Shown: in pieces, positions 1,295-59,097 of the stretch
How positions within the stretch are numbered: the stretch's first letter is position 1
Layout: every line of letters starts with the position of its first letter
Assembly: GCA_030280995.1 (NCBI GenBank)
Contig: JASXTE010000001.1
Coordinates: 3,470,001-3,534,000 of the forward strand
Length of the DNA stretch: 64,000 nt
Source: Hemileia vastatrix
Lineage: Eukaryota; Basidiomycota; Pucciniomycetes; Pucciniales; Zaghouaniaceae
Reading direction: 5' to 3'
Program-made: the position numbers and the translations under genes
Notes under the pieces: generated by a model
The model's database searches: none
Told to the model about the DNA's origin: nothing
The model's input: only the letters and a program-made list of their open reading frames with translations

Positions 1295-1437
1295 AAGTGG
1301 GATTGGTTCCATCAACAATGGTCCAGTCACAACTGCAACAAGGATCCTCCTCCTCATCAGACTTCCTCAGTTCACCCCTACAAGGGAAAAAAAAGGCACC
1401 AAAAATCAGGGCTCACACAAAATCCCCTGGTAAGTAG

Positions 1438-20080: not shown

Positions 20081-20081
20081 A

Positions 20082-21797
20082 TTGGACACAGGAGCTGCTG
20101 GTTCAGTTGTTTCCACTAATACATTACAGAAAATTGATAGTGAATATAAGTTTAAGCTTGAACCACTTCAAAATAAAAATTGGAGAGGTTTTGGATCAGT
20201 ACTACACCCCATTGGTAAATACAAAGCTGCTGTTTTCTTTAAACACCAACATGGTTATGTAAGGGTAACTTGTGACTTTGTAGTAATGGATAATACTAAT
20301 TGTAGTAACTGTTTTATCATTGGAAATGATATTCTGACTAAATTTGGTGTAAAATTAGACCCTGCTAATAATAATTTTACAATTGGCATGAATGGTAAGA
20401 GGAAATTTAAAATAAATTCTTTTAACACAGTCTTACACATTGAGTCAGTAACAAATTCCCCGTCTAAAGGAAGAGAATCCAATGAGATGGAACTTCTGGA
20501 AACAGAAATTTCAAAAGCATCATTTGGCACTCAGATAAGTGAAACTGAGAAAGATAATATTTTGGAATTAATTAAAGATTTTCCAATGGCTTTTGCACAT
20601 GGTACAAATGAACTTGGCCTTGTAAAAGATCATGAAATGAAGATTAGTTTAACCTGTGATATTGATAATATTCCTGCTAGTCTTAAAAAGAAACCATACC
20701 CTGCTTCACCAATGAAGAGGAAAGACATAGAGGATAATATTAAGATGTTATTAAAAATGAACATTCTTGAGAAGGTTGAAACTACACCAAAATATTGTGT
20801 AACATCACCAGTGCTAATTTCTTATGAACAAGATAAAGCAAGACTGTGCGGTGATTATAGAGCATTAAATACATTTACAGTAGATGATATTTATCCCTTG
20901 CCAAGGATTGCCTCTATACATGCTACCCTTAAAGGTGCTAAATATATAAGTTGCCTAGATGGAAATAAAGTGTACCATCAAATTCCTGTTGAAAAGAATT
21001 CACAGAACTTTTTGTTGATAACAACACACATGGGAATTTATAAGTATGTCAGAATGCCATTTGGACCAAAAAATGCTCCATCAGTATTTCAGAAGTTAAT
21101 GGATATAACATTCCATAATGAAATGATTGAGGGATGGTTAATGGTATACATTGATGACATCATAGTGTTCTCTAAAACTTTTGATGAACACTTAATCCAT
21201 TTAAGGAAAGTATTTCAGAAAATGGATGAAATAAAGATGACCCTTGCATTGAAAAAATGTAAATTTGGGTTTGAATCTTTAAAAGTGCTTGGTCATATTG
21301 TATCTGGCTTACAAATATGTGTAGACCAAAATAAAGTGGCTGCAATAAAGAATATTGGCATTCCACAAAATGTGAAGGATGTACAATCTTTTCTTGTAAT
21401 GTGTGGTTATTATAGACAATATATAAAAAACTACCAATCAATTGCTGCACCACTGACCACACTGATAAAGAAATCAGAAGCTTTCATTTGGAATAATGAA
21501 AGACAACAAGCTTTTGATAAGTTGAAAGAATGTTTAATGACAGCTCCTATCTTGGGATTACCAGATTTTCAATTACCTTTTGTATTATATACAGATGCAA
21601 GTTTTATTGGACTGGGTGCTGCTTTACATCAAAAACAACTTATTGAAGGTAAAATGTCAGAAGTAGTAATCTGCTATATTTCACGTACTCTGAGAAGTGG
21701 TGAATTGAAATATGGTGCTACTCAACTTGAATGTTTGGCAGTAGTATGGGCTCTTGAAAAGCTACATTATTACCTTGAAGACCAAAAATTTGAGTAA
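20082..21797 (+). pseudogene. Protease, RT and RNase H start of element B
   Basis: Starts in the protease at DTGAAGSVVS right after the solo LTR and stays open for 571 codons. RT blocks: CGDYRALNTFTVDDIYPLPR near 20850-20905, YIDDIIVFS near 21148-21174. RNase H: YTDASFIGLGAAL near 21590. Ends at TAA 21795 where A and D read Leu (FELITD), so RNase H is cut in two. In an intact element this part makes cDNA from element RNA and removes the RNA strand. Confidence 0.9.
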
Positions 21798-21833
21798 ATA
21801 ACTGACTGTAGTGCAGTTAAGTCACTCTTAAAC

Positions 21834-22364
21834 ATGAAAACTCCTAATAGACACATGTTTAGATGGCAATTAGCTGTACAAGAATACAGAGGCCGGATGA
21901 CTATTACACATAGAGCAGGAACCTTGAACTATAATGTAGATCTGTTATCTAGAGTACCTCTGCCTAATAATGATGATAATCCTGCTTATGTTCCTGAGTT
22001 AGAGATTATTAACATTTATGGCATTTATATTGTAGATCTTGAGGATGAATTTATGCAATCAATTCTTGATAATTATAATTCAGATCCTGACTTAAGTAAA
22101 TTAACTACAATATTAAAAGATCCATCTAATGCTTCAATGAATTTTTTAATAAAAACATTACCAATTAAGTATAAAGAGGCATTAGAAAAAGGAAAATTTT
22201 CCATTGAGGATGGTTTTATATATTACAGGAAAAAATTAAGTAATGTAATTGTAATTCCCCCTTCAATGAAGGAGTTAATGTTAAGTATATGTCATGATGA
22301 TATATTAGCAGGTCATTTTGACTACCATAAAACATTAACCAGAGTAAAAAGCACAGCTTGGTGA
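21834..22364 (+). pseudogene. RNase H end and integrase N-terminus of element B
   Basis: Same frame as the preceding piece after the stop at 21795. Contains FRWQLAVQEYRGRMTITHRA of the RNase H end, an acidic linker and the integrase zinc-binding His pair (CHDDILAGHF). Ends at TGA 22362-22364, where D has TGG (TAWWIN), so the integrase is split before its CDSC pair. Confidence 0.87.
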
Positions 22365-22370
22365 ATTAAC

Positions 22371-23582
22371 ATGTCTGAGGATGTTCAGAAATATGTTGAA
22401 ACATGTGATTCTTGTCAAAAATCTAAAAGATTAACAGGAAAAAGAGCTGGTTTATTACAACAAATTGAGCAACCAAAAGCTCCATGGGAAATCATTAACA
22501 TGGACTTTGTAACAGGTTTGCCAATAGCAGGGCATAAGAGTTATAACTCCTGCTGGGTAATTGTAGAAAGATTTACAAAGATGTGTAAATTTATTCCTAC
22601 CCACAAAGAGGTTTCTGCAAAGGACTTAGCTTTTTTATGGTGGACACAAATGTTAAATACAGCAGGTTTCCCCAAAGCAATAGTTTCTGACAGAGATCCT
22701 AAATTTACTTCTGAGTTCTGGACGTCACTTATGGATGTTTCAGGGTGTCAATTAAAACTTTCTACAGCACACCATCCACAAACTGATGGGCTAGCAGAAA
22801 GAATGATACAAACCTTAGAAGATATGATAAGAAGATACTGTGCTTTTGGTCTTAATTTTAAAGACAATGACAAATTCACGCATGATTGGGTAACCCTTAC
22901 CCCAGGTTTAGAATTTGCATATAATAGTACAGTACATTCTGTCACTGGCAAAAAGCCATTTGAGTTATGGTTGGGTTATGTACCTAATAACCCTGCTAAA
23001 ACTCTTAATAAACTACCTAGATTTGATATCCATCCAGGTACTAAGTCTTTTCTTCAGATGCAGGAATTATTCAGAAAACATGCTCAAGAATGTATAAATA
23101 AGGCTTTTGAGTATGAAAAGAAAAGATGTGATAAAGCCCATAAAGAACAAATGTTCAAAGAGGGTGATGAAGTCCTTATTTCAACGCTACATTTCAATTT
23201 AAATGGTAATGTTAAATTGAAGGATCCATTCATTGGACCATTATTAGTGAAAAAGATGGTTGGTAATAATGCTGTTGAGGTTATTCTATATGCACCTTAT
23301 GATAGAAAACATCCAGTATTTCCTATTTCTCTTATAAAACCATACCATTCTAATGATACTGCTCTATTTCCAAGAAGATCAGGAAGGCATAAACAGCAAC
23401 CTGAAGAAATAGTGGAAAAGGCAGAAATTGAAAAGATACTTAAAAAGAGACACCTTACTAAAGAAAAGGGAGTTGAGTATCTATTAAGATTTAAAAATAA
23501 ATCAAGTGAAGATGACCAGTGGATTCCAGAGAATGAAATCTCTGATCTTAAAAATCTCTTGAAAAAATTTAAATCTAAATAA
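22371..23582 (+). pseudogene. Integrase and chromodomain of element B
   Basis: Open for 403 codons to the natural stop. CDSCQKSKRLTG completes the zinc site. The catalytic triad is D in NMDFVTG (about 22499), D in SDRDPKF (about 22688) and E in LAERMIQ (about 22796). A basic linker and a chromodomain-like end (EIEKILKKRHL, LLRFKNK, QWIPENEI) follow. Such chromodomains usually steer insertion towards modified histones. The initial Met is internal, so this is a fragment of the polyprotein and not a separate gene. Confidence 0.9.
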
Positions 23583-28736: not shown

Positions 28737-28819
28737 CTCCCTCACTCTAAAAAACAATAAAAAAAATGCTGTGATTTTTTCTTTTTATATTTCTTTAGCA
28801 CAGTAGGAAGATTAGATAT

Positions 28820-30090
28820 CTACTTCCCAGGTATCCAAGAATTATATTCAGAAGATTTATTCTTGAATCTCAATAAGTATTCTGTACCTTTTTCAGCAGT
28901 AACTATTCTTTCATCTAGAATCTTATCAATTTCTGCTGTCTCAGTGATTTCAGTAGGGGTCTTTTTTGGTCTTCCCCTACTTTTGGGAAATAATTCACTA
29001 TTGGATGTGTAGGGTTTCAAAAGAGATATTGGAAAAAAAGGATGTTTTCTGTCATATGGAGAATAAAAAATAACTTCAACTGCATTCAAACCAACCATTC
29101 TTCTGACAACAAATGGACCTACAAATGGGTCTTTTAATTTGTTGTTACCTAGTAAATTGAAGTGGACTGTAGAAATCAGTACTTCATCACCCTTTTTAAA
29201 AGTTTATTCTTTATGGGATTTGTCCCATCACTTCTTCTCATACTCAAAGGATTTTTCAATAAAGTTTTGAGCATGACTTCTGCAAAGTTTTTGCATTTGA
29301 AGAAAATATTTTACGCCAGGATGTAAATCCAATTTAGGTATTTTATTATTGAGAATTTGGGCAGGAGTATTAGGAACATATCCCAGCCAGAGCTCAAAAG
29401 GCTTTTTCTGAGTAACAGAATGAACAGTGCTATTATAAGCGAATTCAAACCCAGGGAGTAGGGTAACCCAATCATGAGTAAATCTGTCATTGACTTTGTA
29501 CTCAAGGCCAAAGGCACAATACCTTCTTATCATGTCCTCTAAAGTCTGAATCATTCTTTCAGCTAATCCATCAGTTTGAGGGTGATGGGCAGTAGAAAGT
29601 TTCAGATCACAACCACAAACATCCATCAGAGACATCCAAAATTCAGAAGTAAATTTAGGGTCTCTGTCAGAGATTATGGCTTTAGGAAAACCTGCAGTAT
29701 TAAAAATATGAGACCACCATAAGAAGGCTAATTCTTTAGTGGAAGCATCCTTGCATATGGGGATAAATTTACACATCTTTGTGAATCTATCCACAATAAC
29801 CCAACAAGAGTTATAATTGTCTTTCCCAGAAATGGTTAGTCCTTTTACAAAGTCCATGTTTATTATCTGCCTTGGTGCATCAGGAGATTCAATATGTTGC
29901 ATTAATTTAGCTCTTTTACCAGTCAATCTTTTTTATTATTGGCAAGAATCACAGGATTCAACATATAGTTTGGCGTCTTCAGACATATTAACCCACCAAG
30001 CAGTGTTTTTAATTCTGATCATTGTTTTTTCAAGATCAAAATGTCAAGCCAATATGTCATCATGACAAATTTTCAAGGTGATCTCTTTCA
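28820..30090 (-). pseudogene. Integrase and chromodomain of element C, broken
   Basis: Minus-strand pieces 29926-29228 and 29098-28820. The integrase core is recognisable: NMDFVKGL, ISDRDPKFTSEFW, GLAERMIQTLEDMIRRYC. The zinc-binding CDSC near 29945 is followed by two stop codons. The chromodomain-like end (EIDKILDERI, LLRFKNKSSE) stops early at WIPGK. At least one frameshift lies between 29228 and 29098. Confidence 0.88.
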
Positions 30091-30352
30091 TAGAAGGAGG
30101 AATAACAATGACATTACTCAACTTTCTTCTATAATAGAGGTAGCCTTCATCAATTGAAAATTCACCTTTTTCCAAAGCTTTCTGGTACTTTGGTGGAAGG
30201 GTTTTAATTAATGCCTTTATTGAAGCATTCTTTGGATCATTTAATATGGTACATCACTTTTTTAAGTCAGTGTCCTTATCATATGAATCCAGAATAAGAT
30301 GTAATAGCTCTTCCTCCATATCAACCACATATATCACATGAATATGAACAAT

Positions 30353-31867
30353 TTAATCTTCAGGAACATATGCAGGGTCTGAGTCATCATTTGGAAAAGG
30401 TAATCTTGATAACATATCCACATTTGAGTGAACAATAACAGCCCTATGAATTATTGTCATTCTCCCTCTATATTCTTGAACAGCCAGTTGCCATCTGAAC
30501 ATATGTCTGTTAGGTGTTTTCAAGTCTAGTAGGGATTTAACTGCACTGAAGTCAGTGATAAGTTCAAATTTCTGGTCATCCAGGTAATAATGTAGCTTCT
30601 CCAGAGCCCACACTACTGCTAAACATTCTAGTTGAGTGGCACCATATTTCAATTCACTATTTCTCAAGGTTCTTAAAATATAACAAATTACTACTTCTGA
30701 TACTTTATCATTCATCACTTGTTTCTGATGGAGGGCAGCACCAAGACCAATAAAACTGGCATCAGTGTATAAAACAAATGGTTGATTAAAGTCAGGTAAA
30801 GCAAGAATTGGTGCTGACAATAAACAATGTTTCATAGTTTCAAAAGCTCTTTGTCCTTCACTGTTCCAGACAAAAGCAACATCTTTCCTAGTCAGTTGGG
30901 TAAGGGTTAATGCTATGACTTGGTAATTTTTAATTTACTGTCTATAGTATCCACACATTCCCAGAAAACTCTGTAGCTCTCTAACTGTGGTAGGAGCCTT
31001 CACCTGTTGTATGGCTGCCACTTTGTTTTTGCCAACACATATCTGTAAGCCTGAGACAGCATGACCAAGCACTTTTAAGGAATGAAAACCAAATTTTCAT
31101 TTCTTCAAAGCCAGTGTAATATTTATCTCATCCATTTTATGGAAAACTTTACACAGGTGGTTAAGGTGGTCCTCAAATGTTTTAGAGAATATAATGATAT
31201 CATAAATATAAATCTTCAGCCATCCTTCAATTATTTCTTGATGGAATGTGTTATCCATAACTTTTTGAAAAACTGAAGGGGCATTTTTAGGGCCAAATGG
31301 CATCCTAATATACTTATAAATACCCATATGAGTAGAAATAATCAGAAAATTCTGAGAGCTCTTCTCAACAGGTACCTGGTGATATCCCTTATTACCATCC
31401 AAGCAGCTGATTTATTTATCACGTTGTAGGGTAGCATGTATTTAGCTAATTCTGGGCAAAGGATAGATATCATCAACAGTATAAGTGCTCAACGCTCTAT
31501 AGTCACCACATAACCTGGCCTTATCTTTCTCATAAGAAATTAGGACAGGTGAGATAATAAAATGTATAGATGTTTCAACTACCTTTTCAATAATATTCAT
31601 TTTTAAAAGGGTGGAGATATTGTCTTCAATATCTTTTCTCTTTGTGGGAGAAGCTGGATAAGGCTTCTTTTTTAAACTAGGTGGTATTTCTGTAAATGGG
31701 AAAGATAATGAAAGCTTCATTTCTTCTTTTACCAATCCTAATTTATGTGATCCATGAGCAAAGGCCATAGGAAAAGATTTGATCAATTTAATGTTTGAAT
31801 CTTTATCCTCACCAGAAAGTTGTTCTCCAAAAGAAGCATTGTCAATTTCAGACACAAGGGCAGGCAT
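30353..31867 (-). pseudogene. RT and RNase H of element C, broken
   Basis: Pieces 31867-31442 (RT start, ARLCGDYRALSTYTVDDIYP), 31402-31097 (RT core; the YIDD box reads YIYDI, so a key Asp position is altered) and 30835-30353 (RNase H, LYTDASFIGLGAAL). Several stops lie between them. The protease region near 32200-32290 is also broken, with GAGGS readable just past a stop. Confidence 0.86.
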
Positions 31868-32278
31868 TTTTTTTGTAGATCTTCCTTTATATTGAACTAC
31901 AGAATGTCATGTGTTCAATCCTGGTGTTAATAATTTCTTGGGGGAGAAAATTTTAAATTTTTATCTTCCCATTCATCCCCATTGTGAAGCATTAGTTTGA
32001 AGGATCTAATTTTATTCCATATTTGGTTAAAATGTCATTTCGCACAATGAACCAACTACTCAAGTTATCATTTTTCATGACAACAAAATTACATATAGCT
32101 CTTACAAAACCATGGTTATATTTGAAAAATACTGTGGCTTTTTATTTACCAATGGGGGACAAAGCAGAGCCATAACCTCTCCAATTCTCAGAAATGATAG
32201 GCATAAGTTTTTATTTATAATCTTGGTCCACTAAACCAAGTGCTTTTTCAGATACTACACTTCCTCCAGCTCCAGAAT

Positions 32279-34105
32279 CTAAGACACCTCAATGTTATTT
32301 CCATTGATCAAGACTGGTGCCTTGAGAGGGGAAAAAATAATAGAGATTTCCTTAAGGTCTTTTATGATCTCAGCATCCTCTACTGTAGATAAATCATTAT
32401 TCTTAATATCAATATTATTTAAATAATGAATATTCTCTTCCAGAATTAATATTTCCCGGTGAGATTCATATGAGATATTTCTGGCACAATCACTTGAAGT
32501 TTCATCCAGTGCTATTGTGTCATCAGCATGTTCCTCTGTCTTCTCAACAAGATGTATCTTCTTGTCACAAACATGGACTTTCTTCCAAGGCTTACTGCTT
32601 TTGGAGTAAGTATTTGTTGCATACTTTTTGGGTGCAACAGGGGCAGAATGTTTACCAACTTTTTCCAGAGGTTTTTGTTGGTAATTGGAGGTTTTCTTTA
32701 ATGAAAATCTAGAAATGAATCTTCTAGAATCATACTTGTTGTTAAGAAGGATCTCATTACAAGTATTAATGAAAGAAGAAGGTTCATTTGAGAACTCAGT
32801 TCTAGCAACTATTAAGTCTCTCAGAGACATAGGTAATTTATAGAGGATCCTGTCCTTCCATGACTCAAACTCCATATCTGGGTCCATTGCCCTTAAGATT
32901 TTCACAAGTTTCATCAAGAACTCAATAGGTTTTTCAGTAGAAGAGCTATATCTGGTTTCTTCATAGTGCCTTTGTTGAGCTAATCTAAACTTGGAGCCAC
33001 CAAATTGTGCTTTAATTAATTTTTTCCAATCTTTCCACGAGTAGTCATTTTTATCCAAGAGAAAAGATTAATACCACATTAGGGCTATATTGGTAAATAA
33101 AGAAATTAATTTTGACACAATTTCCTCATCTGGGAGTTTGTGAGAATTTTTTAGATTATCAATTCTGCAAATGAACTGTTGCCAATCAGAGGAAGAGTCA
33201 CCATCAAATTTTGGATACTGGTCAAGTTTTGGCCAATTCTTTTGATTTGAAGTAGTCTCCTTGTTACAAGCTTGTTTCTGAGTGAGAAGGAGCTGTAACT
33301 TCTCCAATTGGGCAGTAATTTCATTGTTTAATCCTTCTGTGGATGATCCAGGTACATCATCAATTTTTGATGGAAACTCAGTGATATCAACAGGTATTTC
33401 AGGAACTAATTTTTCTTTAGATGAACTAGGAACAGGTAAAATTGGGGTATCGTGCTCATCAGATTCTTTCAAAGAAATTTCAGAAAACTTTTGATTATAT
33501 AACAATGAATTCATTATCTCCTCAATGGTTGTTAACCTAGTCTTTACTCTTGGAATACTAGATAAATTCTCATTGATGGTTGCAAAAGATAATTGATTTT
33601 TATTTTGTAAAGATGAATAATAATTACCCAATCTTTCTAAGTTTATCTTATGTCTCTCTAGCTCCTGGAAACATATGGACACAGTATCTTTTAATTTAGA
33701 CAAATCATTCTTGATATTTTACCATAAAGCAACTTTCTTTTCATGAGTTACTTTGTAATGAAACAAATCATCAGAAACTCTCTGTAACTCACTCCTCAAT
33801 GCTTGATAAACCTGTTCTGTTATCAAACTATTATATTTCTGAGTCAATTGCATGTTTTTCATTATATGATTTTGTTTAGCAATAATATCCCTCAAATATT
33901 CATCATTAATGTTAGCTACATCTGGAGTATTTCTCAATAGTGAAACAGAATAACTTTCCAGATTCTCATAAAACTCAGGATCAAGTGTCTCATCAATAAT
34001 AGCCATATCTGAATTTATCATTGAAGTACCAATTAAAACCAAAGGATTAGATACATTAGAATATTGAGCAATTTGTCTACTGTTCTCAGCCTCTACTGGT
34101 CTCAC
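32279..34105 (-). pseudogene. gag region of element C, broken
   Basis: Pieces 34105-33719 and 33703-33068 (coiled-coil and linker, then NWPKLDQYPKFDGDSSSDWQ of the capsid) and 33058-32279 (rest of capsid, then the knuckle). The knuckle reads TYSKSSKPWKKVHVC; its first two Cys are lost, so the zinc site is dead. The stop between the last two pieces interrupts the capsid at MWY. Confidence 0.86.
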
Positions 34106-34185
34106 AGTCTCATCTCCTCTTCTAGAATTACCTGAAGGAACTGAATCAGTTACAAGAAATGGTAATTGAGATTAAATAGAGGGGC

Positions 34186-34807
34186 TTACAATGGCTTGGG
34201 AAAGACTTTGATGTGGTTTTTTTCCCCCCTTCTTCCTCCTTGGTAGGGATGAGGAGGTGTTGGGTTGAACTGATTTTTTCTTGAAAGACCTGCCTGAGGT
34301 ACTTGTTGCTGTGGCTGTTGGGACAGATAATCCCACTGGGTGTTCAGCCAATCCCACTGCCATTTTGAAACTTCCACCTTTTCTTGTTGCTGGGGGGCCA
34401 GTTGTGGAAGGGCTTTTGGAGGAGGAGGTTTCTTTTTCTCTTGAAGAAAGGACTCTATTTTTCTTACCTTGTCCTCTAGAGAGTCTATTTTTGACCTCAG
34501 CTTGAGGTTTTCTGACCTCAACTCCTTGATGTGAGTGGAGAGATTTTTGACTTGCTGATTTAAGGGCATCTTTTTTATCTTGAAGCCTTTAGGAAGCTCT
34601 TCTGGGGGGTTGATAGAAGGCTTTTGTTCCTGAGCAGTTGTCTCCACTAATATTTCCATCTCCTGCATTTCTACATCCTGATTGGTCCAGTAATTGATTA
34701 ATTTGAGCTAGTTTTTTAGTAAAAGGAGAACTTACCTAAGAAGCTTCATCATAATAAATTAAATCTAGCTCCTCATCACGGCCAGAAGAGGCACCTTGAT
34801 CATTCAT
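34186..34807 (-). CDS. Spliced small coiled-coil protein of element C
   Basis: Exon 2 on the minus strand, 34677-34186, is open for 163 codons from GAT GTA GAA ATG. The predicted 58-nt intron is 34735-34678 (GTAAGT donor, AATCAG acceptor), and the acceptor joins at the codon matching that in A, B and D (DxxM). Exon 1 would be 34807-34736 (MNDQGASSGRDEE...), but its last codon is TAG in this copy, probably a decay event. Exon 2 has IKKMPLNQQ, a coiled coil of about 55 residues, a Pro/Gln linker, VSKWQWDW and PHPYQGGRRG. The protein is far diverged from B and D but keeps the same order of blocks. Confidence 0.55.
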
Positions 34808-48354: not shown

Positions 48355-49470
48355 GAATCTTGTTTTGGTATTGAGAATGCAACTAAAGTAGGATGCCCCC
48401 AGCATCAAACTTCAATGGCTATCTTCTAATGGCCAAAAAATTAAGAAATAAGACAATGTGAATAATTGATCTTTTTCAAAAACAGATTTCTTGATGTTTC
48501 AAGCACTATCAAGCAAAAAAAAATAAGGCTAAGACTCTTTCATCTTCCACCATTTTTGGTATTTCTGATGTTGATATCAGTAAGGGCATTAAATCTATTA
48601 ATTATAACCTTGATTATTTATGTCCTTACTATAAAAAGATGTAATCTATATCTGGAGAGAAAATTGATGTTAATCCTGAAAACATGTTTGATGGAGAAGA
48701 TGCTATCTCCAAACATGATATTGAGAGAGATATTTTTGAATCCTCTTCCTCCACTCAAGCCTCCCCTCTTTTTAATTCAAAAAATTAAGATATCTTTTCC
48801 ATAGATCCTTATGGTGATATAAACCAAACAAATCTAGCTCCAGTGAGTTTCTTTCTTGTATCTAGTCAATTTATTTATTCATATTTACTTCTCTTTGTCT
48901 TATTTCTATAAATTCTAATGAAAAAACCCAGGAGCTAAAATCAAATGACTCTGAAACTAGAAAAAATGATAATGATGACCAAAATATACTAAATTCCTTC
49001 AAAAAAAATAAAAGACATTGAACTACTCTGAATTAAAGCAGTCAAAGAAAATGAAAAAGAGATAGTACTTCTCAAACCCCTATTACTTCTATAGAATATT
49101 TTTAGACAAACATGATTCTTTTAAGCGATAATATACCTCTTAATAATTAATTGTACTTTTGTTTTAATATTTTTTAATATTTCTTAACACTCTAGTTAAA
49201 GTCAAAGTTGCACAAGTGACTCATAACTTTCAAAAGAAACAATATGACCTCTCTTTACAGCGGGATGATAGAGCACAAGACTTGGAGGAGAAAAAATATG
49301 AGCCCTTTTTATGTATTGATGATAGGAAAAAAGACTTTTAGCAGAAGTAATTTGAGATAATTCTAAGTATTGAAAAATCAAAGAAAGAGGACAAAGGTCT
49401 CAAGTACACACAGGATGAAAAAAAGACAGCTGGTAGGAAAGTTGTTTTTTGTCTCCCAGACTACCCTCAG
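48355..49470 (+). pseudogene. Harbinger accessory gene of H4, second fragment
   Basis: Continues the gene cut at 37010. Recognisable blocks are ENATKVGCPQHQT, an SSSTxFGISDVDISKGI-like stretch near 48560-48600, an intron-like region at 48842-48920, and coiled-coil units near 49230-49400 (DLEEKKYEP). Numerous stops and frameshifts. It ends at the target site of retroelement D. Confidence 0.65.
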
Positions 49471-50961
49471 TGTCAGCCTGTATATCTCCAGGACTGAGTA
49501 AAAAGTAATGTTAAACACATGAACTATACATGGGAATAATAAATAAGAGTACACAAATAGTATACATAAGTAAAATTATGATAATACACACAAAATGCCA
49601 TTATAACACCTTATATACACGCATATATCCACCTTTTATAGGTCTTATGTACTTAATATTAAGTTGGAATATGTTGGGGTAATCTTAAGAACCTTAAGTA
49701 TAAGGCTACATAATTTTTAAGTACACTTAAAGCTGTTATATTCATTGTTTTATGCAAAAAACAAGAAATGCACTTTATTTCACTTAAAAGTTGACTATAT
49801 GCGCTTTAAAATTGAGAATATCAAAATTGCGCTTTGACAGATCAATTGGGCTCATTTAGAACTATTGATTTGGCTATTTAAATGCATAAAAATAACACTT
49901 TTCAAATTTGGTGTTTTTTATGCCAGAAATGGCTTCTGTGTACTGGCCACATACTGCCTGCTTTTTTACCGTGTGAATAGCTTCATTTTTAGCAAAGTTA
50001 GCTTTTTCACACTATAATTACCCCACATTCTACGCCCACTGTGGGGAAACACACTAAAATAGGCGACAGGCGCTTATTTAGTGTCCTAGCTTAATTAATA
50101 ATGCATTGACCTTGTTTATATGCACTAATTTCATTAATAACCTCACTCTTGGCACTTTATTTCATCACCACGCTTAAATTCGCCTAATTTTAGTCAAGGA
50201 TTTACCCGTGCAAGCGCCTGCCAAGAACTGCATGTAGTTACCCCACATCTCACGCTCTTTTTTAAGTTTTTGGGTGGTTTCTCAGTCAATTTTGGTTATT
50301 TTTGAATGGGAATTTCACGTAGTATAATGTCAGGATTAGCCCCATTATTTCTACAGTCGATCCCCCTTATTATTAAGCTATTATTAACCTTAAAAAGTCT
50401 CCTTTAGTCTTTAATATTATTGTTTTATACGCATATACTCTCTTTTTGTCTTTTTCTTTAATTTTGATGGATTTCCCTTATTATTACAAGATTTTGGCGG
50501 TTGTTATTCTTCTAATTATGTCATGGGTTACTGGGAATGTTGATGGGAATGTCTATTAGTTGTTTAGAGGCGTCATTAACTGTGTATTGGGTGGTACATC
50601 AAGGGAATCATTGGGGAACTCAGTGTGTATAAAAGGAGGAGGTTTTTGGGTTGTATTTCTTCATTCTTTATCATTACAATTTAACCAATATAACCAAACC
50701 AATTACAATACATATCAATTAGTACTTTTATAAGACTTTTGAATAGTATCTGAATTTATATAATCTATTTTTCTACCAACTATAAAGATTGTAAGCCATA
50801 TATAAGAATAGTGAGAATTATATTACTGAGACCTCTATATTTGATTATATTTTACAACTTAGTGGATTAAAACTACAGTATTCATATAGGACCATTAAAA
50901 TCTTCTAGACAACTGACTATTCAAGCTAGTTCACGTCCTTGTACTTGACCTTAGCCTGACA
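49471..50961 (+). repeat. 5' LTR of element D
   Basis: 1491 bp from TGTCAGCCTGTATATC to TTAGCCTGACA. It contains a hairpin-forming CCCCAC..GTGGGG pair near 50021-50047 and the promoter at 50628. Other copies: 57602-59092 and, reversed, 18581-20080. Confidence 0.95.
50628..50635 (+). promoter_or_regulatory. TATA box of element D 5' LTR
   Basis: TATAAAAG is followed by GGAGG and then a pyrimidine-rich stretch where transcription may start; 334 bp before the LTR end. The same motif is at 58759-58766 in the 3' LTR. The position fits a U3 promoter driving genomic RNA. Confidence 0.6.
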
Positions 50962-51546
50962 ATTGGGGACTTTTCCTCAAGAATTCTGTTATAATCCTGT
51001 AAGTGAAATTTTCAAAAGAAGGTGCACCTAAATAATATCCCTATAGAAATATTTGGATAATTACAACAGGTTGGGGTCACTTATTTAGTGATTTCAGAAA
51101 AAGAAGCCCTGTTATATAATAAAATTGTGATATTGAATCATCAATTTTACCACTAATTTAACATATAATTGTTCTTAGTGGGAGTCTGTCAATAGACCAA
51201 TTAAATTTGTGATCTTTGCAGATAATAACCAATTAAACTGATTAATTGTTTTCTTTTTACAGGACTCTTAATCCCTTTTTATTGGTTTGTAAAATTCATT
51301 TAATATTTAGAAAGAATCTTACTAACAAATTTTGTTTTTTAAATATAAATACACGGCTACATATTGTAGACCAGTTAAATCAAGTGACCACATAAAAGCA
51401 TATTTGACTTTTGGCACTTAAAAATTCACTTAATACCAATAAGTAAGCAATAAAATTGTCTTCAGTGGTAATAGAAAATACTGATTAAACTCCTTTTTGA
51501 AGTTTTTCAAATCTAAACTTTCAATTCTCTAAAATTCCACGTAAAA
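50962..51546 (+). promoter_or_regulatory. Leader of element D with primer-binding site
   Basis: ATTGGGGACTTTTCC (50962-50976) directly after the LTR is the likely primer-binding site, sharing TTGGGG with A and B. The remaining 570 nt are AT-rich with short inverted repeats and no long upstream ORF. Confidence 0.6.
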
Positions 51547-52084
51547 ATGTGTGACAACAATGACATTGTAAGTAATAAGGCAAAACCTTATAACTTAAGA
51601 ACTAGAGCTGAAAGACCTGTTACAGGACATCCAAATGGAGGGTCAAGAATCACCAGTAACAATAAACAACACCCCACCAATGTCCATGGAGGAAAAGGAA
51701 AAGCTCTTAAAACAAATGTCAATAAAGAAGTCCAAAAACACCTTACAAGAGCAAATTCACTCCCTCTCAACCCTACTGAATACACTAACAATAAGAGTAA
51801 ACAATATGTTAGACCAGATCAACAATCTGGAGAAAAGGGCAGCACAGGGCTTTATAGAAGTCAACCAGGCTCTAGTGGATATAAGGTCTCATCAACAACC
51901 AGTGGCACCAAATACCACAGCAACACCTCCAGTCCCAGAAGAGGACCAAAAGATAACTGTAAGCAAATGGAAGTGGGATTGGTATGCCCAAAACTACAAC
52001 AGTCCTCCTCAACAGGGATCCAGCAGTCACCCTTACAGGGGAAAGCCAAGGAGAGGCAGGGGAAATGGAATAAGACCGTGGTAA
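51547..52084 (+). CDS. Spliced small coiled-coil protein of element D, about 159 aa
   Basis: Predicted join 51547-51567 and 51626-52084. MCDNNDI from exon 1 joins DIQMEGQESP of exon 2 in the frame that overlaps gag-pol. Exon 2 alone is open from ATG 51635 for 149 codons. Blocks in order: MSMEEKEKLLKQMSIKK, coiled coil (about residues 35-95), Pro/Thr linker, VSKWKWDWYAQ, and an Arg/Gly-rich end (HPYRGKPRRGRG) that could bind RNA. It is conserved in block order with B and, distantly, with C. A Gag-like RNA-binding or assembly role is an inference; no known family is recognised. Confidence 0.62.
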
Positions 52085-55000
52085 GTCATCCATCTTCTCA
52101 AGATCAATTATATAATCCTAACAATGAATTACTTATAGATAATGAAATTGATAGAGAGTTATTGGATATAATTGATAAGGATTTAAAAAATTATTCATTT
52201 GAAAATAACATGTTAGACTTGTCATTACATGAGGACAATGTACATAGTTTTATTGATCACCAGGAAAATACTATTAATATAAAAATGGAATCAAATGAAG
52301 GAAAAATTGACCCTGATGAAGAATCTTCTGAATTGGAAACAGACAAAATTGAATATTTTCTGAAAGAAAATCCAATGGAATCAAAAATAATTAGTAAATT
52401 ATTATTGAGAATTGAAAAATTGGAAGAATTCTCTAGAGAGTCCAACAATAATACAGAAAGTGTATTATTAAACATCACACAATCATTGAGTACAACAGCC
52501 AATAAGTTAAAAATTATTGAGAATTCAAATAATGAATTGATCAATGAAAACAAAAGATTAAATTCTGAGATTAAAAATTTAGAAATTAAATTAGAACATT
52601 CTCAGAATATTATGGCCACCATAGAGGGACGTGTAAAATTGTCTTTTTCAAATGTAAATGATACTTTAACTCATGTACCTGTAATAAAAGATAGGTTACA
52701 AAGAGTAGAAATTGAGGTAGCCAACATTTTGAAAAATACTGAAACAATAAAGGATAATACCTCTTATGTAGAAAGAGTACCAGTTTTTATGAAACACTCT
52801 GATGATAAACCAATGATGGAACATGAACATAGTGTCATGGGCTCTGAGAATATAAAATCAGTAAAAGATGAAATTAATGATCATCTTTCTAAAGTGAGTG
52901 AATTACTCAATATTCCTCAGGTTAGGGAAGCTAAAACTAGCCAAAAGAACTGGCTTAAGTTAGATCAGTACCCTTCTTTTGATGGGGATTCAAAATCTGA
53001 TTGGCAACAATTCATACAAAGAATTGATAACTTAAAATTTTCATATAAATTACCTGATGAAGAAATTACTTCAAAGTTAATATCTTTATTTACAGATGTG
53101 GCCTTATTATGGTTTGAATCTGTATTGAGTGAGGGAATTAATTACTCCTGGAATGAATGGAAGGCACTAATTGAAAGGCAATTTGGTGGCCCAAAATTTA
53201 GAATCACTCAACAAAGACTGTATGAAAGGGCCAGATATAATCCAAATGCTGGAGATAAACCCATGGTCTTCTTAATGAATTTAATAAAAATCATGAAAGC
53301 TATGGATCCAAAAATGGATTATGAAGAGTGGAAAGAAAAAATAATATACAAGTTGCCTATATCAGTTAGAGACATTATTGTAGCTAGAACTGAGACTGTC
53401 AGAGACACCTCTGGATTCATTAATATATGCAATGAGATATTATTAAACCACAAGTATGAAACCAAGTATAGTAATTACAGACAAAGTGTTGACGTGGTAA
53501 AACCTACTACAAGTAAGTTACCAGTGGAAAAGAAAAAACCTTCAGCTCCCCTTGTCCTTAAGAGACAAGAAAATAACACTTGTTACAAATGTAATGAACC
53601 TTGGGTTAAAGGTCACACGTGTAAGAAAAGAATAAATGTTATTGAAACCTCACAAAATTCTGAACCTAGTAATCATGAAGATGAGAATGTGGAATCCAGT
53701 GAGGATTGCAAGAGTAACATATCTTACAGTGATGATGAAAATGAGATATTTGTATTAGAACAGGATATAATGTTCCTGAATGATGCTATACCTCATACAG
53801 ACACATCTTTAACTTCCATAGAGGAAGCTGAAATAATTAAAGATGTATCTCATGACACTTACAAAATAACACCTATCAGAGCACCTATTATCATATGTGG
53901 AAAAGAAAAGAATGCCATTCTTGACACTGGGGCTGCAGGTAGTGTAGTTTCACTTAATGCATTAATGAAACTTGATAGTAAGCACCAGGAAAAACTAGAA
54001 CCTGTTCAGACAAAGAACTGGAGGGGTTTTGGTTCAGTATTAAATCCAATTGGCAAATACAAAACTGCTGTATTCTTTAAATATAATAATGGATATGTTA
54101 GAGCAGTTTGTGAATTTGTAGTAATGGATAATAATAATTGTAGTGATTGGTTTATTATTGGCAATGATTTATTGACAAAATTTGGCATTAAACTAGATCC
54201 TGCAAACAGTTGTTTCACCATAGGGGTGAATGGTAAAAGGAAATTCAAAATATGTTCTGAAAATTCAGTATATGCCATTTCTCCTAGAGAAGAACAACTG
54301 CAAGGTGGAAGAACCACCAATGAAGTGGGTGAATTGGAAAATGAAATCCAAAAGGCCTCTTTCAGTCCTCAACTCTCAAAAATTGAACAAGAAGACATTT
54401 TGAGATTGATTAAATCATATCCTATGGCATTTGCTCATGGATCAAATGAACTAGGATTGGTCAAAGACCATGAGATGAAAATCTCTCTAAGCTGTGATCT
54501 GGATAATATTCCTGGCAGCTTAAAAAAGAAACCTTACCCAGCATCTCCTGCAAAAAGGAAAGATATTGAAGACAATATAAAATTGTTGTTGGAAATGGGT
54601 ATTGTTGAAAAAGTGGACACAACACCTAAGTATTGTGTCATTTCACCAGTATTAATATCTTATGAAAAAGATAAGGCAAGATTATGCGGTGATTATAGAG
54701 CTCTGAATACATATACAGTAGATGATATTTACCCTCTACCAAGGATAGCTTCTATCCATGCTACCTTACAAGGAGCAAAATATATTTCCTGTCTGGATGG
54801 GAACAAGGGTTACCACCAGATTCCTGTGGAAAGAAATTCTCAAAATTACTTATTAATAACCACACATATGGGTATATATAAGTATGTGAGAATGCCATTT
54901 GGCCCAAAGAATGCCCCTTCAGTCTTCCAAAAATTGATGGATAGTGTTTTTCATCAGGAAATGGTTGAAGGATGGCTATTGGTCTATATTGATGACATCA

Positions 55001-57420
55001 TAGTGTTTTCAAAAACATATGATGAACATTTAAATCACCTGAAAAGAGTCTTTCAAAAAATGGATGAAATCAATATGACTATTGCATTAAAGAAATGTAA
55101 GTTTGGATTTCAATCCTTGAAAGTACTTGGACATGTTGTATCTGGATTACAAATTTGTGTTGACCAGAATAAAGTGGCAGCAATTAAAAAAATTGGGATA
55201 CCTAAAAATGTAAAAGAGGTTCAGAGTTTTTTGGGTATGTGTGGATATTATAGACAATATATTAAAAATTACCAATCCATTGCAGCCCCTTTAACAACAT
55301 TAATCAGGAAGAATGAAGCTTTCATTTGGAATAATGAAAGACAACACGCCTTTAATAAATTAAAGGAATGTTTAATGTCAGCTCCAATATTGGGACTGCC
55401 AGATTTCACCCTACCTTTTATCTTGTACACTGATGCAAGTTTCATAGGTTTGGGTGCTGCTTTACAGCAAAAACAGATAATAAATGGAAAATTATCTGAA
55501 GTAGTTATCTGTTATATATCCAGAACCTTAAGAAAAACAGAATTAAGGTATGGTGCCACACAGCTAGAATGTTTAGCCGTGGTGTGGGCTTTGGAGAAAC
55601 TTCATTACTATCTGGAAGACCAGAAGTTTGAACTTATAACAGATTGCAGTGCAGTAAAATCATTACTAAACATGAAAACACCTAATAGGCACATGTTTAG
55701 ATGGCAACTAGCTGTACAAGAGTACAGAGGAAGAATGACAATCACTCACAGAGCAGGAACATTGCATTCAAATGTGGATTTATTATCCAGAAGTCCTTTG
55801 CCAAATGATGCTGACAACCCAGCTTATGTGCCTGAAAATGAGGTTATACATATATTTGGGATTTATATAGTGGATTTAGAAGAAGAGTTTATGCAAACTA
55901 TATTGGAAAATTATTCATCTGATACAGATTTGTCTAAACTATCTACCATTCTTAATGATCCAACAAATGCCTCCATGAGTGCATTAATTAAAACCTTGCC
56001 TCCAAAGTATAAAAATGCGTTGGAAAAAGGTAAACTATCAATTGAAGATGGATATATATATTACAGGAAAAAGTTAAGCAATGTAATAGTAATACCACCT
56101 TCTATGAAAGAGTTAATGTTGAGTACTTGTCATGATGACATCTTAGCTGGTCATTTTGACTTTAACAAAACATTAACCAGAGTTAAAAATACAGCCTGGT
56201 GGATAAACATGAGAGAGGATGTACAAAAATACATTGAAACATGTGACTCTTGTCAGAAATCTAAAAGATTAACTGGGAAGAGAGCTGGGTTGTTACAACA
56301 AATAGAGCAGCCAAAAGCTCCATGGGAAATTATAAACATGGATTTTGTAACTGGCTTGCCATTAGCAGGAAAAGAAAGTTTCAATTCTTGCTGGGTAATA
56401 GTGGATAGATTAACAAAAATGTGTAAGTTTATCCCTACCCATAAAGAGGTATCTGCAAAAGACTTGGCATTACTATGGTGGACTCAGATGATGAATACTG
56501 CTGGGTTCCCCAAAGCCATAATCTCTGACAGAGACCCTAAATTTACTTCAGAGTTCTGGACATCTTTGATGGAAGTATCAGGTTGTCAATTAAAATTGTC
56601 TACAGCACACCATCCACAAACTGATGGGCTGGCTGAGAGGATGATACAAACTCTAGAAGACATGATCAGAAGATATTGTGCCTTTGGATTAGAATACAAA
56701 GACAATGAGAAATTCACACATGACTGGGTAACATTAATTCCTGGCCTTGAATTTGCTTATAACAGCACAACTCATTCTGTAACAGAGAAGAAACCATTTG
56801 AACTCTGGCTGGGATATGTACCAAATACCCCAGTAAATCATTTAAATAAACTACCAAGGTTGGATATACACCCTGGCACTAAATCCTTTATTCATATGCA
56901 ACAAATGTGTAGAAAGCATGCAGAAGAATGCATCCAAAAAGCATTTGAATATGAAAAGAAAAGGTGGGACAAATCTCATAAAGAATTTGAATTTAAAAAG
57001 GGAGATGGAGTCCTCATATCAACACTACATTTTAACTTACAAGGTAATGTTAAATTAAAGGATCCCTTTGTAGGACCTTTTGTAGTAAATAAAATGGTTG
57101 GGAATAATGCAGTGGAAGTCATATTATATGCTCCATATGAAAGGAAACATCCAGTTTTCCCTATCTCATTATTGAAACCTTACCATGCAAATGATCCTGA
57201 CTTATTTCCTAAAAGAAGGGGAAGGCCTAAAAAGCAACCTGAAGAAATTGTGGAAAAAGCAGAGATTGAAAAAATACTCAAGAAAAGAATCCTTACTAAA
57301 GAAAAAGGAACTGAGTATTTACTAAGATTTAAAGGGAAATCAAATGAATTTGATAAATGGATACCTGAAAAAGAAATTTCTAATTTATCCACCCTTCTTA
57401 AAAAATTTAAACAGAAATAA
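51547..57420 (+). CDS. Gag-Pol polyprotein of element D, 1957 aa
   Basis: Single open frame for all retrotransposition functions. Approximate residues: 1-180, low-complexity region overlapping the small ORF; 260-440, coiled coil; 465-650, capsid domain; 679-692, zinc knuckle (CYKCNEPWVKGHTC); 793, protease DTGAAGS; 1000-1250, RT with YIDD at 1147-1150; 1290-1420, RNase H (YTDAS); 1525-1570, integrase zinc site (H..H, CDSC); 1598, 1660 and 1697, the integrase D, D, E residues; 1905-1957, chromodomain-like end. No frameshift is needed between gag and pol if the ATG at 51547 is used on unspliced RNA. That ATG is immediately followed by an intron-like segment, so unspliced and spliced messages would give different proteins. 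Confidence 0.93.
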   Translation: MCDNNDIVSNKAKPYNLRTRAERPVTGHPNGGSRITSNNKQHPTNVHGGKGKALKTNVNKEVQKHLTRANSLPLNPTEYTNNKSKQYVRPDQQSGEKGSTGLYRSQPGSSGYKVSSTTSGTKYHSNTSSPRRGPKDNCKQMEVGLVCPKLQQSSSTGIQQSPLQGKAKERQGKWNKTVVSHPSSQDQLYNPNNELLIDNEIDRELLDIIDKDLKNYSFENNMLDLSLHEDNVHSFIDHQENTINIKMESNEGKIDPDEESSELETDKIEYFLKENPMESKIISKLLLRIEKLEEFSRESNNNTESVLLNITQSLSTTANKLKIIENSNNELINENKRLNSEIKNLEIKLEHSQNIMATIEGRVKLSFSNVNDTLTHVPVIKDRLQRVEIEVANILKNTETIKDNTSYVERVPVFMKHSDDKPMMEHEHSVMGSENIKSVKDEINDHLSKVSELLNIPQVREAKTSQKNWLKLDQYPSFDGDSKSDWQQFIQRIDNLKFSYKLPDEEITSKLISLFTDVALLWFESVLSEGINYSWNEWKALIERQFGGPKFRITQQRLYERARYNPNAGDKPMVFLMNLIKIMKAMDPKMDYEEWKEKIIYKLPISVRDIIVARTETVRDTSGFINICNEILLNHKYETKYSNYRQSVDVVKPTTSKLPVEKKKPSAPLVLKRQENNTCYKCNEPWVKGHTCKKRINVIETSQNSEPSNHEDENVESSEDCKSNISYSDDENEIFVLEQDIMFLNDAIPHTDTSLTSIEEAEIIKDVSHDTYKITPIRAPIIICGKEKNAILDTGAAGSVVSLNALMKLDSKHQEKLEPVQTKNWRGFGSVLNPIGKYKTAVFFKYNNGYVRAVCEFVVMDNNNCSDWFIIGNDLLTKFGIKLDPANSCFTIGVNGKRKFKICSENSVYAISPREEQLQGGRTTNEVGELENEIQKASFSPQLSKIEQEDILRLIKSYPMAFAHGSNELGLVKDHEMKISLSCDLDNIPGSLKKKPYPASPAKRKDIEDNIKLLLEMGIVEKVDTTPKYCVISPVLISYEKDKARLCGDYRALNTYTVDDIYPLPRIASIHATLQGAKYISCLDGNKGYHQIPVERNSQNYLLITTHMGIYKYVRMPFGPKNAPSVFQKLMDSVFHQEMVEGWLLVYIDDIIVFSKTYDEHLNHLKRVFQKMDEINMTIALKKCKFGFQSLKVLGHVVSGLQICVDQNKVAAIKKIGIPKNVKEVQSFLGMCGYYRQYIKNYQSIAAPLTTLIRKNEAFIWNNERQHAFNKLKECLMSAPILGLPDFTLPFILYTDASFIGLGAALQQKQIINGKLSEVVICYISRTLRKTELRYGATQLECLAVVWALEKLHYYLEDQKFELITDCSAVKSLLNMKTPNRHMFRWQLAVQEYRGRMTITHRAGTLHSNVDLLSRSPLPNDADNPAYVPENEVIHIFGIYIVDLEEEFMQTILENYSSDTDLSKLSTILNDPTNASMSALIKTLPPKYKNALEKGKLSIEDGYIYYRKKLSNVIVIPPSMKELMLSTCHDDILAGHFDFNKTLTRVKNTAWWINMREDVQKYIETCDSCQKSKRLTGKRAGLLQQIEQPKAPWEIINMDFVTGLPLAGKESFNSCWVIVDRLTKMCKFIPTHKEVSAKDLALLWWTQMMNTAGFPKAIISDRDPKFTSEFWTSLMEVSGCQLKLSTAHHPQTDGLAERMIQTLEDMIRRYCAFGLEYKDNEKFTHDWVTLIPGLEFAYNSTTHSVTEKKPFELWLGYVPNTPVNHLNKLPRLDIHPGTKSFIHMQQMCRKHAEECIQKAFEYEKKRWDKSHKEFEFKKGDGVLISTLHFNLQGNVKLKDPFVGPFVVNKMVGNNAVEVILYAPYERKHPVFPISLLKPYHANDPDLFPKRRGRPKKQPEEIVEKAEIEKILKKRILTKEKGTEYLLRFKGKSNEFDKWIPEKEISNLSTLLKKFKQK
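51568..51625 (+). other. Predicted 58-nt intron at the start of gag in element D
   Basis: GTAAGT donor after the seventh codon, a possible CTGAA branch site near 51608, acceptor TTACAG. The length is not a multiple of three, so retention or removal decides which of two reading frames is translated. The same layout occurs in A (910-967, 58 nt), B (16231-16285, 55 nt) and C (34735-34678, 58 nt). Confidence 0.65.
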
Positions 57421-57590
57421 ATTTCTGTTCAACCAGCTGAGGGGTTAAAAAAACAGTACTCATAATATGTTATTATGTTTTATTTCTTTAAAGTTGAATC
57501 TTTAATGCTACAGATTTATTCTGAATACCTGAAAATTACAAATTAATAAAATAAAATGTATAACTTATCATTTTTTTTATTGTTTTTTTT

Positions 57591-57601
57591 GGGTGGGTGA
57601 G
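57591..57601 (+). promoter_or_regulatory. Polypurine tract of element D
   Basis: GGGTGGGTGAG directly before the 3' LTR, after a T-rich stretch. It would prime plus-strand DNA. It is interrupted by two T residues, unlike the cleaner tracts of A and B. Confidence 0.75.
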
Positions 57602-59092
57602 TGTCAGCCTGTATATCTCCAGGACTGAGTAAAAAGTAATGTTAAACACATGAACTATACATGGGAATAATAAATAAGAGTACACAAATAGTATACATAA
57701 GTAAAATTATGATAATACACAAAAAATGCCATTATAACACCTTATATACACGCATATATCCACCTTTTATAGGTCTTATGTACTTAATATTAAGTTGGAA
57801 TATGTTAGGGTAATCTTAAGAACCTTAAGTATAAGCCTACATAATTTTTAAGTACACTTAAAGCTGTTATATTCATTGTTTTATGCAAAAAACAAGAAAT
57901 GCGCTTTATTTCACTTAAAAGTTGACTATATGCGCTATAAAATTGAGAATATCAAAATTGCGCTTTGACAGATCAATTGGGCTCATTTAGAACTATTGAT
58001 TTGGCTATTTAAATGCATAAAAATAACACTTTTCAAATTTGGTGTTTTTTATGCCAGAAATGGCTTCTGTGTACTGGCCACATACTGCCTGCTTTTTTAC
58101 CGTGTGAATAGCTTCATTTTTAGCAAAGTTAGCTTTTTCACACTATAATTACCCCACATTCTACGCCCACTGTGGGGAAACACACTAAAATAGGCGACAG
58201 GCGCTTATTTAGTGTCCTAGCTTAATTAATAATGCATTGACCTTGTTTATATGCACTAATTTCATTAATAACCTCACTCTTGGCACTTTATTTCATCACC
58301 ACGCTTAAATTCGCCTAATTTTAGTCAAGGATTTACCCGTGCAAGCGCCTGCCAAGAACTGCATGTAGTTACCCCACATCTCACGCTCTTTTTTAAGTTT
58401 TTGGGTGGTTTCTCAGTCAATTTTGGTTATTTTTGAATGGGAATTTCACGTAGTATAATGTCAGGATTAGCCCCATTATTTCTACAGTCAATCCCCCTTA
58501 TTATTAAGCTATTATTAACCTTAAAAAGTCTCCTTTAGTCTTTAATATTATTGTTTTATACGCATATACTCTCCTTTTGTCTTTTTCTTTAATTTTGATG
58601 GATTTCCCTTATTATTACAAGATTTTGGCGGTTGTTATTCTTCTAATTATGTCATGGGTTACTGGGAATGTTGATGGGCATGTCTATTAGTTGTTTAGAG
58701 GCGTCATTAACTGTGTATTGGGTGGTACATCAAGGGAATCATTGGGGAACTCAGTGTGTATAAAAGGAGGAGGTTTTTGGGTTGTATTTCTTCATTCTTT
58801 ATCATTACAATTTAACCAATATAACCAAACCAATTACAATACATATCAATTAGTACTTTTATAAGACTTTTGAATAGTATCTGAATTTATATAATCTATT
58901 TTTCTACCAACTATAAAGATTGTAAGCCATATATAAGAATAGTGAGAATTATATTACTGAGACCTCTATATTTGATTATATTTTACAACTTAGTGGATTA
59001 AAACTACAGTATTCATATAGGACCATTAAAATCTTCTAGACAACTGACTATTCAAGCTAGTTCACGTCCTTGTACTTGACCTTAGCCTGACA
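57602..59092 (+). repeat. 3' LTR of element D
   Basis: 1491 bp, the same length as the 5' LTR and differing from it at about eight bases that I could find by eye. Ends CCTGACA, followed by the target copy CTCAG. Confidence 0.95.
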
Positions 59093-59097
59093 CTCAG

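Follow-up and report, generated by a model that had tools for sequence, protein, structure and literature searches.

One start codon and two overlapping frames: probable optional splicing in a Ty3/gypsy retrotransposon of Hemileia vastatrix

The element and its reading frames

The window analysed here, a stretch of 64,000 nucleotides (nt) of Hemileia vastatrix DNA (G000:C26:3470001-3534000 of an assembly of 747.6 Mb in 791 contigs), contains at 49471-59092 a long terminal repeat (LTR) retrotransposon whose gag-pol start codon probably serves two proteins, the frame that is read depending on whether a short intron is kept or removed. This element, the window copy of the family designated E, is a member of the Ty3/gypsy group (Metaviridae), chromodomain lineage, with protease, reverse transcriptase, RNase H and integrase in that order and a C-terminal chromodomain. 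Pfam comparison of five pieces of the polyprotein recovered RVP, RVT_1, RT_RNaseH_2, Integrase_H2C2, rve, SH3_Tf2-1 and Chromo, the rve match (31.7 bits) lying just below its cut-off of 32.6; the capsid part, in the first of the five pieces, gave no Pfam match. The TG..CA ends of the LTRs, a target site duplication and a purine tract are those of a Ty3/gypsy element, and the two LTRs are 99.46% identical (self-blastn). The features of the element are the following:

49466..49470, with a matching copy at 59093-59097, no strand assigned: 5-bp target site duplication CTCAG (flank reading)
49471..50961, plus strand: 5' LTR, TGTCAG...CTGACA (self-blastn of 49469-50961 against 57600-59092, trimmed to TG..CA)
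51547..57420, plus strand: gag-pol open reading frame, 1957 amino acids in a single frame (frame reading and Pfam)
51547..51567, plus strand: exon 1, the shared start codon and six codons (MCDNNDI; sequence reading)
51568..51625, plus strand: intron 1, 58 nt, GTAAGT...CAG, phase 0, giving gag-pol if kept and the small protein if removed (sequence, and exact removal in relatives)
51626..52084, plus strand: exon 2, the small frame, 152 codons and TAA at 52082-52084 (sequence, alignment, structure model)
51635..51637, plus strand: second ATG (ATG2), in the small frame 9 nt past the acceptor and at the same position in families B and C (sequence)
57591..57601, plus strand: purine-rich tract GGGTGGGTGAG, 5' of the 3' LTR (sequence reading)
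57602..59092, plus strand: 3' LTR (self-blastn and flank reading)

The original prediction had claimed that the polyprotein ATG (here ATG1) is followed after seven codons by a GTAAGT donor, and direct reading placed these at 51547 and 51568. Removal of 51568-51625 was likewise seen to join this ATG in frame to the 152-codon frame, which starts GAC ATC CAA ATG, and the joined exons specify 159 amino acids with KWKWDW and an Arg/Gly-rich tail; the predicted sizes and motifs, a Gag-Pol of 1957 residues against a small protein of about 159, were thus correct. Intron 1 has the GTRAGT donor and YAG acceptor of a spliceosomal GT-AG intron, and exact removal of its counterpart is seen in genomic copies of family C. 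These copies, along with a layout common to three families, support the assignment of Gag-Pol to retention and of the small protein to splicing. It is likely that optional splicing lets the element make two proteins with a single start codon, in which case intron 1 would control the choice between the frames.

Conservation of the layout in related elements

Three further elements with the same architecture were found in the window, and their small frames align to that of the family E copy over nearly the full length:

889..7556, plus strand: relative A, a decayed element of family B type with ATG at 889, donor at 910, acceptor at 967 and an interrupted small frame (sequence comparison)
16210..23579, plus strand: relative B, with ATG at 16210, a 55-nt intron between the donor at 16231 and the acceptor at 16285, and the small frame at 16286-16756 (sequence comparison)
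28796..34807, minus strand: relative C, with ATG at 34807, a 58-nt intron between the donor at 34735 and the acceptor at 34678, and the small frame starting at 34677 (sequence comparison)

All three are damaged, Gag-Pol from ATG1 stopping after 69, 9 and 23 codons in A, B and C, respectively; in relative B the gag-pol frame is closed two codons after it enters the intron, and exon 1 of relative C has an in-frame TAG at its end. The leader of relative C (35300-34900, minus strand) consists of repeated units, most of them with a TTTCAG acceptor-like site, then TTGA and GTCCTG or GTCCAG.

The families compared were E with its subfamily E2, B, and C with subfamilies C1 and C2, and their loci were collected by small-frame similarity, which biases the sets to intact small frames. 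The layout common to the three families is a phase-0 exon 1, GTRAGT, 55-58 nt, a CAG acceptor followed directly by GA, and D-x-x-M opening exon 2. Conservation of donor, acceptor and frame among family copies had been named as a check on the prediction, and in family E, whose 30 loci include the window copy itself (L019), GTAAGT was found in 29/30, CAG in 30/30 and the 58-nt length in 29/30. The corresponding figures for family B (30 loci, one unanchored and one being the window copy) were GTAAGT 27/29, CAG 29/29 and 55 nt 29/29, and those for family C (12 loci, two left unanchored by the script) were GTRAGT 7/10, CAG 9/10 and 58 nt 9/10. When family C loci were taken regardless of the intron, as the first 20 C-type KW motifs listed on contig C2, the intron was kept in all 19 that were readable, with GTRAGT in 17/19 and CAG in 18/19. 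The loci with Gag-Pol open from ATG1 through all of the fetched sequence numbered 12/30 in E, 15/29 in B and 4/10 in C, the others being broken by stops.

As the copies of the window family are nearly identical, conservation within that family says little, and it could be argued that two open frames and a GTAAGT have met by coincidence in a young family. This is exceedingly improbable, given that the same layout recurs in families with 30-37% identity between their small proteins and given the permutation tests described below. In an alignment of 11 E, E2, B and C members, identity to the window small protein was 37% for B and 30-32% for C, and 24 of the 175 columns were invariant across families, among them K-W-x-W-D-W and the final residues PW. 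The motif lies here:

51965..51982, plus strand: codons of KWKWDW; KW[K/Q]WDW in 11/11 rows (alignment)

A DNA pattern for KWxWDW had 4597+4682 matches genome-wide (0+1 when the pattern was reversed as a control), and a 26-base pattern of the donor neighbourhood of the window family (<=3 mismatches) had 1404+1402, against a control of 0.

The splice sites themselves are retained between families. In five between-family pairs the acceptor CAG with its following GA was identical throughout; as for the donors, three pairs have GTAAGT on both sides and the other two have GTAAGT on one side and GTGAGT on the other. The intron interior was no more alike than shuffles in three of these pairs and somewhat above the shuffle mean in two (reached by 68/500 shuffles); exon 1 showed shuffle-level likeness in four of the five, B v C1 being more alike (12/500 shuffles reach it). 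Between C1 and C2 there were 6 fixed differences in the 58 nt of the intron vs 14 in the 492 of exon 2, and one of the intron changes turned GTAAGT into GTGAGT, so that a donor was retained.

Maintenance of two frames and selection on one

When synonymous codons were permuted with the small protein held fixed, in 8 copies from three families, the Gag-Pol frame was open in 0-0.15% of 4,000 permutations per copy (p about 0.0015 or less per copy), the permuted sequences having on average 4.8-7.3 stops in that frame. Under two further codon models it was open in 0-0.03%, and the real sequences contain 11-15 stops in their third frame. The two open frames are therefore no accident, and both are kept.

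The two frames are kept in different ways. In a codon alignment of exon 2 of E v E2, 40/63 classified changes were synonymous in the small frame (expected 0.263, p 7e-10) and 8/63 in the Gag-Pol frame (expected 0.277). For C1 v C2 (4 v 4 copies) the synonymous changes were 11/14 in the small frame and 0/14 in the Gag-Pol frame, and for B v L078 they were 32/49 and 8/49, L078 being a single copy whose private changes are included and whose small frame is broken near its end. To judge from these changes, the small protein is the conserved product and is under purifying selection, and the Gag-Pol amino acids over the overlap drift freely, yet the frame is stop-free in intact copies. Such a pattern makes sense only if Gag-Pol starts upstream, at ATG1.

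The lack of constraint on the Gag-Pol amino acids suggests that the region may be mainly regulatory, and the intron, even if truly spliced, might chiefly reduce Gag-Pol or link the export of RNA to splicing, with the small protein as a by-product. This is very unlikely, however, since purifying selection on the small frame is clear in all three comparisons and 24/175 columns have remained invariant across the families.

Genomic copies of spliced RNA

Reverse transcription of spliced RNA should leave intronless copies in the genome. Spliced junctions were counted for families E and C, with matches at <=3 mismatches. The family C junction was found at 22+21 = 43 places (control 0), of which 5, 11, 11 and 16 had 0, 1, 2 and 3 mismatches, respectively. 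The intron-bearing form is present at 2258+2379 = 4,637 places, so that the spliced share is about 0.9%. In L087-L091, aligned to intron-bearing relatives, both flanks are continuous and 58 nt are missing at the junction.

These spliced copies might be genomic deletions, or members of a separate intronless lineage, instead of reverse-transcribed spliced RNA. Of five spliced copies, three have lost the exon 1 ATG and two have early stops, and an earlier tree of 28 copies, in which one lineage had no intron-bearing representatives, grouped seven spliced copies in a clade and required 5 changes, 4 of them forced. When unselected intron-bearing copies were added, however, the tree of 41 family C copies required 11 changes for the 11 spliced copies, 10 of them forced by well-supported branches, and the intronless lineage suggested by the clade of seven was thereby ruled out, the added copies including members of that same lineage. 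This tree contains 11 of the 17 intron-bearing rows of the earlier one and 19 new rows (L067, L068 and L079-L082 were left out); L097, which is the same place as L087, was omitted from the trees, and L090, where exon 1 is immediately preceded by an LTR-like end, was retained. Moreover, the loss of intron 1 is exact at GT...AG, where the ends share one base of homology only (by inspection), and L095 shows a second exact loss, at intron 2. An origin by deletion or from an intronless lineage is therefore highly improbable. The 11 changes represent separate events, and spliced RNA has been reverse transcribed repeatedly.

A second intron at the small stop codon

Another intron-like segment, intron 2, coincides with the end of the small frame:

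52081..52138, plus strand: intron 2, 58 nt, GTAAGT...CTAAC...TTATAG, with the small stop TAA inside the donor (sequence; homologue exactly missing from L095)

Neither this intron nor ATG2 at 51635 was mentioned in the original prediction. In family E it reads GTAAGT...AG^GTAAT and has 58 nt in 29/31 rows, the two other rows being the window copy twice (window and L019), which reads AG^ATAAT. It has 52 nt in 26/31 family B rows and 51 nt in L041, the rows without the signal being L048, L057, L058 and relative A, in all of which the small frame is broken, and it has 58 nt in 11/11 family C rows. Among the spliced copies (L098 was left out of this comparison) the homologue, exactly 58 nt, is lost in L095 as well as intron 1; the printed alignment shows it retained in L088, L092, L093, L094 and L096, and no gap of that size interrupts the alignment of L087, L089, L090 and L091 there.

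Where exon 3 starts with GTAA, the small protein ends in a tryptophan codon and a stop (TGG TAA) with or without removal of intron 2. In one C lineage the donor is GTACGT, so that the unspliced frame lacks a stop at this point and TGG TAA arises only by splicing. At 52139, the first base after intron 2, the window copy has A vs G in the 29 other family E loci; splicing of its intron 2 would therefore give TGA and a small protein one residue shorter. A fusion of the small frame with Gag through splicing of intron 2 was considered and ruled out, as the small frame ends either way.

The small protein

The predicted product of the spliced frame has a coiled coil, KWKWDW, a basic Arg/Gly-rich tail and a C-terminal PW. 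Its structure model (mean predicted local distance difference test score, pLDDT, 66) consists of a long helix (residues 40-88) and a second, short helix that covers KWKWDW, with the remainder uncertain:

51743..51889, plus strand: long predicted helix, exon-2 residues 40-88 (structure model, pLDDT 89-96 in blocks 41-80 and 74 in 81-90)

Pfam comparison of the small proteins gave matches below the curated cut-offs only, mostly coiled-coil-like, and no homologue of the small frame outside this genome was found in the Pfam, protein or structure searches. A Foldseek search against viral models returned 29 matches at E <= 10, none of them at E <= 0.001.

Evidence against optional splicing and the possible use of ATG2

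Several results weigh against the interpretation favoured here. The window family E had 0 spliced-junction matches (<=3 mismatches) vs 2,806 places with its donor neighbourhood, and it is by homology that we infer splicing there in the manner of family C. A CTRAY scan of intron 1 of the window copy found no branch point inside it, so that this intron may splice weakly; a CTAAC branch-point motif is present in elements A and B. Between E and E2, intron 1 has only 2 near-fixed differences in 58 nt vs 64 in the 459 of exon 2, which reverses the pattern of C1 v C2 and means that the intron is not always the faster part. Four of the 43 family C places (C348 and three short contigs) have identical matched strings and may represent a single place; 12 regions were read, one place twice, which yielded 11 distinct spliced copies of the 43. 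ATG2 is preserved across all the families though splicing does not need it. Finally, the structure model is confident only in the helix, and three protein database searches with the small proteins gave no relative at E 0.01 and no functional hint.

The contrast between E and E2 hints that there may have been recombination near the border of intron 1 and exon 2. Exon 1 is identical in the E2 copies (L073-L076) and the E copies (L001-L030), and L030, of family E, carries one E2 intron state. The leaders of E and E2 differ by insertions and deletions, which makes a position-by-position comparison unsuitable.

ATG2 at 51635, which belongs to the small frame, offers a conceivable route to its expression besides splicing. 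The main rival explanation is that the window family has no functional splicing and that the small protein is made from ATG2 by leaky scanning or re-initiation on the unspliced message. The conservation of ATG2 in three families, the absence of any ATG between ATG1 and ATG2 in the two family B copies checked and the 0 spliced genomic copies of the window family are in its favour. However, A is found at -3 of ATG1 in the E, B and C copies compared, and A at this position is a strong start context; moreover, 4-5 extra ATGs lie between ATG1 and ATG2 in the four C copies checked and one in two E copies. Leaky scanning also leaves unexplained both the preservation of donor and acceptor in diverged families and the 43 spliced C places. 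Upstream of ATG1, the window copy has no ATG from about 50655 to 51547, and none was found over 320 nt in the E, B and C copies checked; upstream ATGs are present in the damaged window copies A and C. Expression from ATG2 in place of splicing is thus unlikely, and leaky scanning may have a minor use.

Proposed mechanism

Under optional splicing the unspliced RNA would be both genome and Gag-Pol message, with the Gag-Pol frame crossing intron 1, the small exon and intron 2. Removal of intron 1 (51568-51625) would shift the frame and yield the 159-residue protein, which would have seven residues in common with Gag-Pol and is presumably translated. A multimerising, RNA-binding protein made from spliced RNA would fit a role on the unspliced RNA, and the small protein may accordingly be regarded as a putative protein of this kind acting on the unspliced RNA of the element, with retention or nuclear export as its most likely point of action, in the manner of CERV in Cer1 and of Rev in lentiviruses. 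Early RNA would be spliced and give the small protein, and unspliced RNA would later be let through to Gag-Pol synthesis and packaging.

A retrovirus-like programme of two steps can be proposed tentatively, and we regard it as possible but less likely than not. In it a fully spliced RNA, whose stop codon is re-created by the splicing of intron 2 (TG^GTAA), would produce a small multimerising RNA-binding protein that licenses the retention or export of unspliced RNA. Such a system would have evolved apart from CERV and Rev (see below), in elements with KW[K/Q]WDW at >9,000 places.

If the element is optionally spliced as proposed, the retroviral strategy in which spliced RNA gives a regulator and unspliced RNA gives Gag-Pol would extend to an abundant group of retrotransposons beyond Cer1, in a compact dual-coded design and with a protein that had no relative in the searches made. 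In addition, genomic copies of spliced RNA offer a way to show the splicing of a transposon without RNA data, and a small frame under selection over a Gag-Pol frame that is merely kept open is a directly testable case of overlapping-gene evolution.

Other features of the window and of the families

A further intron may be present in the leader of the window element:

50999..51262, plus strand: possible 5' leader intron, GTAAGT ... TTTTTACAG, between the LTR and the shared ATG (consensus match only)

Compared with the window C copy, L088, a family C copy without intron 1, had no loss matching this leader intron. Elsewhere in the window, at 44588-45775 on the minus strand, an open frame encodes a DDE_Tnp_4 transposase domain (E 4.9e-23). 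Head-to-tail arrays were also observed, with family E copies every 8141 bases, four in a row, at G000:C2:35490804-35515673, and family B copies every 7933 bases, three in a row, at G000:C84:15397751-15414084; the arrayed copies probably share LTRs.

Comparison with known systems

The original prediction held that no described Ty3/gypsy element has such a switch, and in this it was wrong in substance, as Cer1 of Caenorhabditis elegans makes CERV from a spliced mRNA (PMC10309623, PMC3315495). Cer1 is a Gypsy/Ty3-related element whose gag and pol form a single frame that no stop divides; the spliced CERV mRNA has five exons, and the protein has its N-terminus in common with Gag and uses another frame in exon 4, and mutants showed that it is needed for the export of unspliced Cer1 RNA (PMC10309623, PMC3315495). 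The present element resembles Cer1, as described there, in that unspliced RNA would give Gag-Pol and spliced RNA a second protein with the same start and another frame (PMC10309623, PMC3315495). This trait, a shared start with another frame reached by splicing, was found here as the layout of three families, with spliced copies in family C and none in the window family. CERV also has a possible leucine zipper and no obvious homology reported outside nematodes, in which it is like the small protein, and it is set apart by its length of 517 amino acids, its five exons, a cysteine-rich loop and a domain resembling G proteins (PMC10309623, PMC3315495). The small protein of H. vastatrix has about 159 amino acids from two or three exons, with a coiled coil, KWKWDW and a basic tail. 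Moreover, unlike Cer1, the element is found in another host and in thousands of copies.

Among retroviral regulators, Rev is encoded by widely separated exons and has a start other than that of gag, and deltaretroviral Rex follows the same logic of a small regulator from spliced RNA as lentiviral Rev. Rev is described as a small protein from spliced RNA with a basic RNA-binding stretch, which multimerises and acts on unspliced RNA (PMC10309623), and a comparable action is what we propose for the small protein. In EVD and other Arabidopsis Ty1/copia elements (shGAG) spliced and unspliced RNA also have different products, retention giving the polyprotein; they differ, as far as the account goes, in being Copia and not Ty3/gypsy elements and in that Gag itself is the product of splicing, which goes together with early polyadenylation (PMC8892269). 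Additional frames of plant LTR retrotransposons and the spliced transcripts of Bagy2 likewise provide extra proteins, sometimes through splicing; these frames lie most often between pol and the 3' LTR, in sense or antisense, and the part of the source available to us does not mention sharing of the gag-pol start (PMC7264820). In a literature search at the level of titles and abstract openings, with subscription journals largely outside it, no such switch was found in a Ty3/gypsy element other than Cer1. The kind of system is thus known from Cer1, and the present one is a compact variant of it, with a different-looking protein and in another host.
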